DNA from: an uncultured Pirellulaceae bacterium
Lineage (GTDB): Bacteria; Planctomycetota; Planctomycetia; Pirellulales; Pirellulaceae
NCBI GenBank assembly: GCA_937967505.1
Contig: CALCJM010000107.1
Span: 1 to 46,495 of the forward strand
Length of the DNA: 46,495 nt
Reading direction: 5' to 3'
Positions 27,191 through 41,773 of the stretch are shown here, in pieces (the first letter of the stretch is position 1; each line of letters starts with the position of its first letter). A model generated the notes under the pieces. The model searched no databases, had not been told where the DNA came from, and was given only the letters and a program-made list of their open reading frames with translations. The position numbers and the translations under genes were made by a program.

Positions 27191-27716
27191 ACGTAACGTG
27201 GATGGGTAACGGACAAGGCCTGCCTTACCCCAAGGGCTTCCACCGTCTGGCGACGGTAGCTACGTTTTTGGGGCACACCACACGCAACGTGGCTACGCTC
27301 GCCAGAGCGTGGCTGAGCACCAGACAAGGCCCGCCTTAACTCAAAAGCTTCCACCGTCTGGCGACGGTAGCTACGTTTTTTTGGGCACACCATACGCAAC
27401 GTGGCTACGCTCGCCAGAGCGTGGATGAGCAACGGACAAGGCCTGCCTTAACTCAAAAGCTTCCACCGTCTGGCGACGGTAGCTACGTTTTTTTGGGCGC
27501 ACCACACGCAACGTGGCTACGCTCGCCAGAGCGTGGATGAGCACCAGACAAGGCCTGCCTTAACTCAAATGCTTCCACCGTCTGGCGACGGTAGCTACGT
27601 TTTTTTGGCGCACCACACGCAACGTGGCTACGCTCGCCAGAGCGTGGCTGAGCACAAGACAAGGCCCGCCTGTACCCCAAATGCTTCCGCCGTCTGTCGG
27701 TGAAAGCCACGTTTTC
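27191..27716. repeat. Tandem array (period about 112 bp) of paired hairpin repeats
   Basis: About four and a half units; the marker GCTTCCACCG starts at 27236, 27347, 27459 and 27571, with a degenerate copy at 27683. Each unit holds two inverted hairpins: CCACCGTC-TGGC-GACGGTAG followed by CTACGTT, and CGTGG followed by CTACGCTC-GCCA-GAGCGTGG, with a spacer containing AAGG-CCTG-CCTT. The same hairpins recur at 39339-39472, 41664-41736 and 46181-46495. The array starts directly at the stop of the DUF1571-like gene. The remaining bases up to 27833 hold no supported gene; open frames through the array are artefacts of the repeat. A REP/BIME-like or MITE-like element is inferred. Confidence 0.93.
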
Positions 27717-37380: not shown

Positions 37381-37439
37381 TTGTATTGACTCTGCAAACG
37401 ATAGGGGTAGGGAAGAGTGATTAGCTCTCCCCTCCCTCC

Positions 37440-37472
37440 GAACCGGACTGGCGGTTCTCCCGCATCCGGCTC
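37440..37472 (-). ncRNA. Group II intron domain V
   Basis: Read on the minus strand, the 33-nt hairpin has outer strands GAGCCGGA and TCCGGTTC (8 pairs, one G-U), an asymmetric bulge, an inner stem GCGG/CCGC and a GAGAA loop. This is the catalytic-core form of domain V. It is 39 nt before the 3' splice site. Confidence 0.9.
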
Positions 37473-37486
37473 TCCAGTTGATAGTC

Positions 37487-38840
37487 TTACCTCAGAGAGG
37501 ATTGGCATTCACGAACATGTGCTGCCTTCAAGCTAAACAGCCCCTGTTCCGCGAAGAAGTCATTGCAATAACGTTGATGGTCCGCGCCACGACCTCGACC
37601 CTTGCGACCGGCGCGTTTACGAAGAATGCTTCGCAGACGCATCCGGATCCAACTGTCGAGATCCGCAAACGTGGTTCGCCAACAGTGTTTGAAGTATTCA
37701 AACCAACCACGCAGTGTGCGGTTGATGTCGGCGATGATCGCCTGCAGGCTGTGCCCATTGGCACGTTTGGTCTTACCGCGAATCGTGTCCTTGAACTTCG
37801 CCAAGCTTTTCTTCCGCGGAAAGCGGCGGTGCTTGATGAAACGATAACCAAGGAACTCGAAACCTTCTTCGTCCGCGTGGACGGTTTTGGTTTTGACCGG
37901 ATGCAGCCTCAGACCGCGGTCGGCGGTCCACGCTTTAACCATGGCCAAAGCCGCTTCGGCTTCTTCGCGGGTAGAGCATTGAATCACTAGGTCATCCGCA
38001 TAGCGGGTCATCTTGTATCCGGCGTCGGCCATAAGATGGTCCAGATCGTTCAGATACAGATTGCTCAACAGTGGCGAGATAATCGCGCCCTGGGGAGCAC
38101 CGCAGGATGGGAGTCCAGTGTTCGACACCATCCATAATGTCAGCTTGCAGAAACTTTTCCACCAGACCAATCACCGAGTTGTCCGCCACGTATTTGCGTA
38201 GCTCGACAAGCAGACGGTTGTGAGGAATCGTGTCAAAGTAAGACTTCAGGTCCACGTCGACCGTGTATTTGAGGCCCGATTTGAGCAGCCCGTCCACACG
38301 ACGTAGCGCGTCTTTACAACCCCGGGCGGGGCGAAAGCCGTAGCTGTGCGTAGCAAACTGACGTTCCAGAATCGGTTCAAGCACGTGGCGAAGTGCCGCC
38401 TGTACAACGCGATCACGAACTGTAGGAATTCCTAACGGACGCGTTTCGTTGGTGCCCGGTTTGGGAATGTTGACCCGCCGAATCGACTGCGGACGATAGC
38501 TTCCGTCCCGCAGTTGCGCCTCAAGCTTGGTCAGATTCCCCACTAGGTTGGCGGTAAAGTCTTCGATCGAAATGTGGTCCACTCCCGCAGCGCCCTTGTT
38601 CGAAGCGACCTCGCGGTACGCCGAGTACAGGTTCTGCTGGTGGAAAACCTTATCCATCAGGCTATGCCATTTTCCTCCTCGAACTTCGTTCTTTTCAAGA
38701 GTTGCCAACATCGTCGGTTTCCAGACACTTGGTTCTGTCCAAGCCCAGTGGGCGAGGTCTTCTCCTGAGAATCTAGACGACACCCGTTTCCGACCGCTGG
38801 CCTGATACGGTGCCGACATTCTTTCGGGTTGTTCTTCCAA
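37487..38840 (-). pseudogene. ltrA: Group II intron reverse transcriptase/maturase, single-base frameshift
   Basis: An LtrA-type protein of about 451 codons split over two frames. The first part (38840 to about 38110) holds the N-terminus and RT motifs 0-3 (VFHQQNLYSAYREVASNKGA, IPKPGTNETRPLGIPTVRDR, YGFRPARGCKDALRRV, VDVDLKSYFDTIPH). The second part (about 38110 to 37487) holds GAPQGAIISPLLSNLYL, the YADD catalytic box (TRYADDLVIQC), and the maturase domain X (IIADINRTLRGWFEYFKHCW). No HNH endonuclease follows. The frames join at HWTP / SCGAPQG if one base is removed from the GGG at 38109-38111. The start is TTG 38840 or ATG 38819. The frameshift either inactivates the protein or is a homopolymer sequencing error. 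Confidence 0.9.
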
Positions 38841-39338
38841 GTTATCTTTCTCCTTCGATCTATCTTCCTGCGTCCCTTTGCTCCACCGGCATTACCCGGC
38901 TTCAACGCTCATACGGACGCTCTGTCCGCCGCTGGTAGAGACCTCGCAGGCTCGTGGCCCTATGGGAGAGGCTGATCTCCTGCGAACGTCCCGCTGTCGT
39001 ACCAGACGGGGATCCCTGCTTAATCCGTTTGACCTTCCATTCATTCCACCTCCAACCACCCCTCGATGTCCGTGGTTCGATCTGTTTTACCCACGGCTGA
39101 CCATCACTGCCTTGATAAACCGGAGTGCCGGTAGATGGCATCTTGAGCTTCGCCTTTAACTAGCAGGCTCGCTAAAATCGACAGGCCGAAACGAGTTCGT
39201 CATCCTGCGGACTAAATGTTCACTTCCAGTTGCTCTCCACCCATCCTCTCCAATACGCAGTTACTTTCAGTTAATTTACTCAGATCAAGTAAATGAAGGG
39301 ACTTACACCCTTCCGATCAAACAAACTCACAGGCGCAC

Positions 39339-39472
39339 TAGCTACCGTCGCCAGACGGTGGAGCGTAAAGGATTGGCTCAGCCTTTCTTTAGCCGTTTGG
39401 CTGGGTTACCACCTAGCCGTCGGTGACGCTTGTTTCAAATTCCGTCCACGCTCTGGCGAGCGTAGCCACGTT
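39339..39472. repeat. Inverted pair of hairpin repeats flanking the intron 5' side
   Basis: The first element is 39339-39361 (CTACCGTC-GCCA-GACGGTGG); its distal CGTT end was displaced by the intron to 37397-37400. The second is 39446-39472 (CCACGCTC-TGGC-GAGCGTAG then CCACGTT) in the opposite orientation. The 84-bp spacer differs from those of the arrays. The pair lies 43 bp past the stop of the minus-strand epimerase gene. Confidence 0.9.
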
Positions 39473-39514
39473 TGGTGGCAGGGGTGGGTGAATAGTCTGC
39501 AAAACGGGTTAAGG

Positions 39515-41654: not shown

Positions 41655-41663
41655 CCCAAACAA

Positions 41664-41736
41664 AACGTGGCTGCGCTCGCCAGCGTGTGGATGGATTGCT
41701 TCTTACTCGATTCACCCTCTGGCGACGGTAGCTACG
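41664..41736. repeat. Inverted hairpin-repeat pair after dus
   Basis: Two elements in inverted orientation: 41664-41690 (AACGTGG, then CTGCGCTC-GCCA-GCGTGTGG) and 41713-41736 (CACCCTC-TGGC-GACGGTAG then CTACG), with a 22-bp spacer, much shorter than in the arrays. Each stem has a mismatch, so this looks like an older, decayed copy. Confidence 0.85.
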
Positions 41737-41773
41737 AAACAGCACTTACCCTACCCCCAAAGATCACCGATAC

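Follow-up and report, generated by a model that had tools for sequence, protein, structure and literature searches.

It is already known that group IIC introns read DNA hairpins, namely terminators and attC sites. B.h.I1 is a further group IIC intron at intrinsic terminators. In the accessible parts of two publications IIC introns are described as known for terminators (PMC8919778, PMC4424553), and the second of these, a 2015 review, distinguishes three target specificities among group II introns of bacteria. When the solved IIC particle sits on DNA, it grips the stem by shape; next come a spacer of 4 nt, an IBS1 of 4 nt and the IBS3 base (PMC10190682). For REP elements, the table of a 2006 survey lists two of the nine group II introns of P. 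putida KT2440 as REP-associated (PMC1525189), which by that entry makes them comparable to the intron described here. Beyond that row, we found no REP targeting by IIC introns in the open-access literature searched.

We analyzed a stretch of 46,495 nt from an uncultured Pirellulaceae bacterium, called the window throughout, which carries a group II intron. Its lineage shares with the terminator IIC introns (E. rectale, GsI-IIC) the RT class, the lack of an endonuclease, an upstream DNA stem-loop and, putatively, a short EBS1-IBS1 pairing and an IBS3 base (accessible parts of PMC10190682 and PMC7923331). However, the exon tail in the window lineage is mostly CTA or CCA and not a T-tract, and whereas the E. 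rectale target has a 4-nt spacer and a 4-nt IBS1, the stem here most often ends 3 nt before the junction. Group IIC-attC introns use attC with TTGT↓T (the arrow marks the insertion point), in contrast to the REP-type hairpin-CTA↓C found here; the window tail is CTA↓C, and 0 of the 63 tails counted end in TGT.

An intron within a hairpin repeat

The intron, 1,938 nt in length, is on the minus strand (Table 1). It is flanked by a UvrD-like helicase gene and an epimerase gene, which are convergent, so that both turn their 3' ends to it. Its 3' end was set by the RF00029 match (37474-37401, minus), which stops exactly at 37401, and its 5' end, GTGCGCC at 39338, agrees with the other 33 rows of the relatives' alignment. 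Domain V/VI and both ends follow the group II pattern (5' GUGYG ... AY 3'). The junctions are thus those of the sequence-only reading. Its span of 37401-39344 does contain the intron but takes in six exon bases as well, the intron proper being 37401-39338. The D1-D4 Rfam families gave no match to the window at E ≤ 1, and RF02003 scored below its threshold in two relatives. A search of the whole window genome (88.9% complete), which had been proposed along with that reading, found the intron once; a further group II RT, distant from it, is at C9.

Table 1. Positions of the features discussed, in the window unless a locus is named
Feature	Position	Strand	Remarks
Group II intron	37401..39338	-	GTGCGCC...CCTAT; 5' end from relatives' alignment, 3' end from Rfam
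Domains V and VI	37401..37474	-	RF00029 full model 1-77, 53.8 bits, E 6.8e-08
RT/maturase, N-terminal piece (RVT_1)	38131..38840	-	
RT/maturase, C-terminal piece, other frame (RVT_1 end with YADD, GIIM)	37487..38110	-	
EBS1 UAGUUA, intron nt 177-182	39157..39162	-	Covaries with IBS1 across relatives
IBS1 TAGCTA, last six 5'-exon bases	39339..39344	-	
5'-exon hairpin CCACCGTC-TGGC-GACGGTAG of interrupted repeat	39342..39361	-	6-bp core, then one mismatch and one pair
3' exon CGTTTGC	37394..37400	-	Remainder of interrupted repeat; first base C, presumed IBS3
Second repeat copy, opposite strand, adjoining insertion (CCACGCTCTGGCGAGCGTAGCCACGTTT)	39446..39473	+	
Intact-repeat array	27240..27690		~112-nt units, each with forward and inverted hairpin
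Inverted pair of repeat copies	41663..41739		
Second intact-repeat array, contig end	46182..46495		
RF01687 matches by RAYT genes	L163:1241-1287, 1987-2033, 2098-2144; L166:2060-2105, 2260-2305; L161		Both sides in L163 and L161

The intron encodes an RT/maturase (RVT_1 and GIIM), though in two frames, and group_II_RT_mat was matched by the N-terminal as well as by the C-terminal piece. The two frames meet approximately at 38095-38131, where a frameshift splits the maturase. This frameshift may be decay or an assembly error. Because the RT is split, the window copy is probably immobile unless aided in trans, and it may be dead. There was no Pfam match to an endonuclease domain in the window RT at E 0.001. 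We ran the class comparison on the relative in genome G035, not on the split RT of the window, whose pieces are 47-49% identical to it. The best PDB matches of that relative's RT were 7uim (2.7e-63) and the GsI-IIC RT 6ar1 (9.5e-61), compared with 6e-41 for 6me0 and 5e-32 for LtrA. We take 7uim to be the E. rectale IIC particle. The class C identity implied in the sequence-only reading agrees with the RT of the G035 relative, which is nearest to the IIC enzymes, with the lack of an endonuclease and with the DNA stem-loop upstream. The EBS1-IBS1 pairing in the window lineage is 4-6 pairs long; IIC introns typically pair over 3-4 bp and have no EBS2.

When the intron is removed, the flanks GCTCCACCGTCTGGCGACGGTAGCTA and CGTTTG rejoin to GCTCCACCGTCTGGCGACGGTAGCTACGTTTG, which is identical at 32/32 nt to an intact repeat at G000:C61:145-176. 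The expectation that removal restores the repeat exactly was therefore correct for this copy but not for the array at 27250-27600, to which it had been tied: the best match there has 3 mismatches of 32, with agreement over GGTAGCTACGTTT. Because of these mismatches the array is, judged by its sequence, a slightly different sub-type of the interrupted repeat. The 5' exon had been described as a stem-loop ending 3 nt before the intron. This is the case for an 8-bp stem with one C·A mismatch, but the stable stem, ACCGTC/GACGGT (6 bp, -5.7 kcal/mol as DNA, z -2.9), ends 5 nt before it.

We found 16 matches to the repeat in the window (≤3 mismatches; 0.01 expected) and 176 copies genome-wide (≤2 mismatches; 2 with a reversed-pattern control). 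A longer pattern (≤3 mismatches) gave 192 copies, 94 forward and 98 reverse, and none in the control. The target is thus an abundant repeat, as had been proposed, and the insertion lies exactly after its hairpin. The copies stand in tandem arrays and in both orientations, and the consensus continues with CGTTTTT. The window repeat is nearly private to its species: of the other 27 genomes in its genus, 22 lack it, four carry 1-3 copies and G013 carries 20. Contigs C3, C32, C61, C121, C138 and C151 of the window genome (G000) start within ~150 bases of a repeat copy. Since several contigs begin in this way, the assembly may be broken at repeats, and the true number of copies may be higher.

Hairpins and EBS1-IBS1 pairing across relatives

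We searched 241 genomes of the family for the RT, of which 75 had a match at E ≤ 1e-40, and retrieved 40 further stretches. This gave a family set of 34 distinct 5' junctions from 22 genomes, window included; L088:1306, L091:1888 and L093:620, where motif matches were misplaced, and L090, at a contig end, were left out. Scanning GTDB with the RT piece of the window itself retrieved no relative. A scan with the clade alignment, of which we used the best 80 of 325 matches, gave a GTDB set of 29 junctions. Six of these are further copies from ACE_PLA12 (G081), and the rest come from Planctomycetota and from records labelled Thermoanaerobaculia, Verrucomicrobiia, Lentisphaerae, Rhodospirillales, Hydrogenedentota, Binatia and others; these phylum and class names are record labels, mostly of MAGs. 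Ten of the 29 junctions were chosen by eye among candidates, loci with no recognizable GTGCG start are uncounted, and L234:3129 and L244:527 were left out, as were L230, L239, L246, L249 and L251, whose exons were too short. Relatives with an unresolved 5' end (three regions of Cupriavidus and Paraburkholderia plasmids; 10 loci of Singulisphaera GP187) were also left out. The 5' ends in G033 were set by comparing copies.

A hairpin lies directly upstream of most junctions. The stem score was ≥5 in 30/34 and ≥7 in 23/34 junctions of the family set and in 24/29 and 20/29 of the GTDB set, compared with 14.2% and 1.75% of 3,998 random draws. Stem sequences differ among genomes and the position of the hairpin hardly varies; the stem most often ends 3 nt before the junction (13/30 and 8/24 scored stems in the family and GTDB sets, respectively). 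The last three exon bases are CTA at 15/34 and 14/29 junctions, and CTA or CCA at 22/34 and 18/29. The first 3'-exon base is C in 29 of 35 printed 3' ends, counted by hand. Copies with no hairpin, named beforehand as what would speak against hairpin targeting, are absent for the most part but do occur by our stem score, with values below the threshold at 4/34 family junctions (L080, which is also L210; L082; L091; the tandem copy L084) and at 5/29 GTDB junctions (L256, L257, L187, L209, L245). By eye, L256 and L257 have an interrupted stem. L080/L210, from Neorhodopirellula pilleata Pla100, combines the missing hairpin with poor EBS1-IBS1 pairing, and its junction is possibly rearranged.

Two genomes with several copies fit this pattern. 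The 14 ACE_PLA12 copies retrieved all stand after hairpins; their sites are distinct, their flanks differ, and at least three different stems are represented. All three copies in G194 do so as well; compared with the intact repeat, one of the joined sites differs at 1 of 45 bases and two at 9 of 45, all past the insertion point. In G116, which is among the window's nearest relatives, the target hairpin occurs once in the genome. Insertion therefore does not require a repeat, and the factor in common is the hairpin, not the repeat. Two intron copies stand head to tail with zero bases between them in two distant lineages, at L105 (G085) and at L125/L126 (G136). Singulisphaera sp. GP187 carries at least 10 related intron copies (L215-L232), and in eight of ten compared by hand a complete hairpin repeat of the CATTCCCACG..CGTGGGAACGA type makes up the 3' flank. 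The sequence-only reading had proposed that the repeats may offer safe intergenic landing sites. Open frames of ≥100 aa span 24 of 36 rejoined sites, compared with 92.6% of 774 random positions. The 36 exclude 16 sites that lacked a 3' end or had a short flank, and the test is weak because such frames are mostly noise in GC-rich genomes.

The sequence-only reading had also named UAGUUA as a candidate EBS1. It pairs with the terminal exon bases UAGCUA at six positions, one of them G-U, and its covariation with IBS1 across relatives bears the proposal out. We compared 23 introns, one per genome except G153, which entered twice, and G081 entered with the copy that pairs worst. Runs of four or more pairs formed in 20/23, while shuffled exons gave a mean of 6.7 and a maximum of 13 in 2,000 trials. 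At one alignment position, with G-U allowed, EBS1 and exon tail read TAGC and GCTA, TAGT and ACTA, GTGC and GCAC, TGGC and GCCA, or TGGA and TCCA, and further TCGT and GCGA, CTTCC and GGAAG, GTGGCA and TGCCAC, TGCTGT and ACAGTA, or GTAGGG and CCTTAC. The misses are L080, L091 and L074. L074 is the least well paired G081 copy, and the other seven aligned G081 copies pair over 4-5 positions.

Probable REP character of the target

The target is a dispersed repeat in five genomes: the window genome, G194, G081, G035 and G159. G194 has 15 copies, including its three occupied sites, and G081 has 135, again with occupied sites included. A generic pattern including the G035 target found 259 copies in G035 and 16 in G159. 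The controls for all four gave 0. In the window genome the short palindrome is thus dispersed in both orientations, as in REPs. GTAG marks REPs, and the reverse complement of the window repeat, CGTAG-CTACCGTC-GCCA-GACGGTGG, has a GTAG-type head adjoining the hairpin; a sister repeat has the head CGTGG. We interpret the target as a REP element of the form hairpin-CTA↓C.

Genes for PF01797 Y1-type transposases, which we take to be RAYT genes, were present in 20/20 lineage genomes searched and in 19/28 genomes of the window's genus. As in REP/RAYT systems and RF01687, a dispersed hairpin with a GTAG-type head occurs together with repeats bracketing RAYT-type genes: target-type repeats lie on both sides of such genes in G035 (L163), G190 (L161) and G159:C3. 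Beside another RAYT gene of G159 (L166) the exact intron target hairpin occurs twice, on one side only. In contrast to those systems, the full window repeat was found beside none of the RAYT-type genes at 32 of 84 places examined in the window's genus, and RF01687 nowhere reached its gathering score in the window. The RAYT link thus rests on the relatives. At L065, a 14-base core with one mismatch lies beside a RAYT-type gene.

Acido-Lenti-1 (RF01687) is an orphan family described as occurring near group II introns for unknown reasons. In the accessible main text of its original paper, the family is mentioned once, in a table, and group II introns are not mentioned. We found that RF01687 matches elements beside RAYT genes in L163, L161 and L166, with up to 51.3 bits (gathering score, 37), and that the array by the G035 intron matches it with 37.7 bits. 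In L243, from a Thermoanaerobaculia MAG, the intron splits an RF01687-type element and an uninterrupted one lies next to it (28.1 and 32.8 bits, both below the gathering score). Because the repeats that match RF01687 stand next to RAYT-type genes, and in L163 and L161 flank them on both sides, the orphan 'sRNA' looks like a REP element.

Competing accounts and target choice

One alternative is that a transcription terminator, in the form of the hairpin repeat, was the target of an ordinary IIC intron. Such targets are what IIC introns are known for, terminators are expected between convergent genes, as here, and the CGTTTTT of the consensus would suit one. Other lineages in the same family do use terminators: introns of G136, G033, G063, G014 and G008, inferred to be IIC because of their targets, insert after terminator-like hairpins, with the stem most often ending 5-6 nt before the junction. 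However, a T-tract between stem and intron (≥5 T in the last seven bases) is present at 18/18 junctions of those lineages, one G136 tandem junction being left out, and at 0/34 and 0/29 junctions of the family and GTDB sets. (In G136 the first base of the intron is placed only to within 2 nt, as the tandem copy starts with GTGCG, not GTGTGCG.) The tandem arrays and double orientation of the repeats also argue against terminators, as does EBS1, which is UAGC- or UGGC-like in most introns of the window lineage and not A-rich. An RT tree of 37 rows groups the window into a clade of 24 (support 98/99), where its closest neighbors are G140 (74% identity), G143, G116 and G141. In a second tree with 23 GTDB loci added, all 23 and the window share one 37-row clade (98/99); L215 is in this tree and absent from the 29 junctions. 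Both trees are midpoint-rooted, and the four terminator lineages placed in them fall outside the window's clade (G008 is absent from the trees). We consider the terminator account unlikely.

The chances are somewhat below even that any strong DNA hairpin with a matching 4- to 6-nt tail will serve, so that REPs are merely common and their biology is irrelevant. The differing stems, also among the copies of G081, and the unrepeated target in G116 fit this account, whereas the tails, which mostly match the repeats in being CTA or CCA, speak against it. As regards how insertion works, it is compatible with REP targeting. It is also conceivable that no targeted insertion took place, and that the repeat spread with the intron inside or recombination between repeats carried it. 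The single copy in the window genome would fit, and recombination could make the head-to-tail copies of G085 and G136. However, the 14 ACE_PLA12 copies with their differing flanks and stems, the covariation of EBS1 with the tail across genomes and the 176-192 window-genome repeats free of thousands of intron bases make this very improbable.

Our preferred reading, in which we have considerable confidence, is that this is a group IIC retroelement with a REP-type hairpin as its target. Comparison of relatives places the hairpin directly upstream and pairs EBS1 with the 4-6 bases just before the insertion point. The RT/maturase and intron RNA would clamp the folded stem by its shape, as in the solved IIC particle, and EBS1 would read the tail, most often CTA. 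The intron would then reverse-splice after the tail, usually before a C and with no target duplication. The hairpin may form when the strand is single, for example at a replication fork. In these genomes such sites are plentiful in REP elements, which offer hairpin-CTAC on the intron-target strand and GTAG-hairpin on the other. Because the stem usually ends ~3 nt before the junction, the window lineage seems to have kept the stem and IBS1 and lost the spacer, so that the outermost stem pairs overlap IBS1. As far as we searched the literature, it would be new for a lineage to target REP hairpins and to have the stem directly adjoin IBS1.

It is likely that REP elements form a fourth class of target for mobile group II introns in bacteria, besides homing sites, terminators and attC. 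One IIC lineage, which occurs in several phyla according to record labels, would have altered EBS1 and brought the stem up against IBS1, so that it reads hairpin-CTA↓C; this is the complement of GTAG, the mark that RAYT transposases read. The Acido-Lenti-1 'RNA' would be one such REP. If this is true, the REP-hairpin lineage adds a fourth specificity to the three given in the accessible part of the 2015 review (PMC4424553), and ties together two mobile systems, both of which work on one and the same folded strand. It would also provide natural IIC particles that read a short tail and leave the choice of stem free. These data further suggest that the orphan family Acido-Lenti-1 of Rfam is simply a REP.
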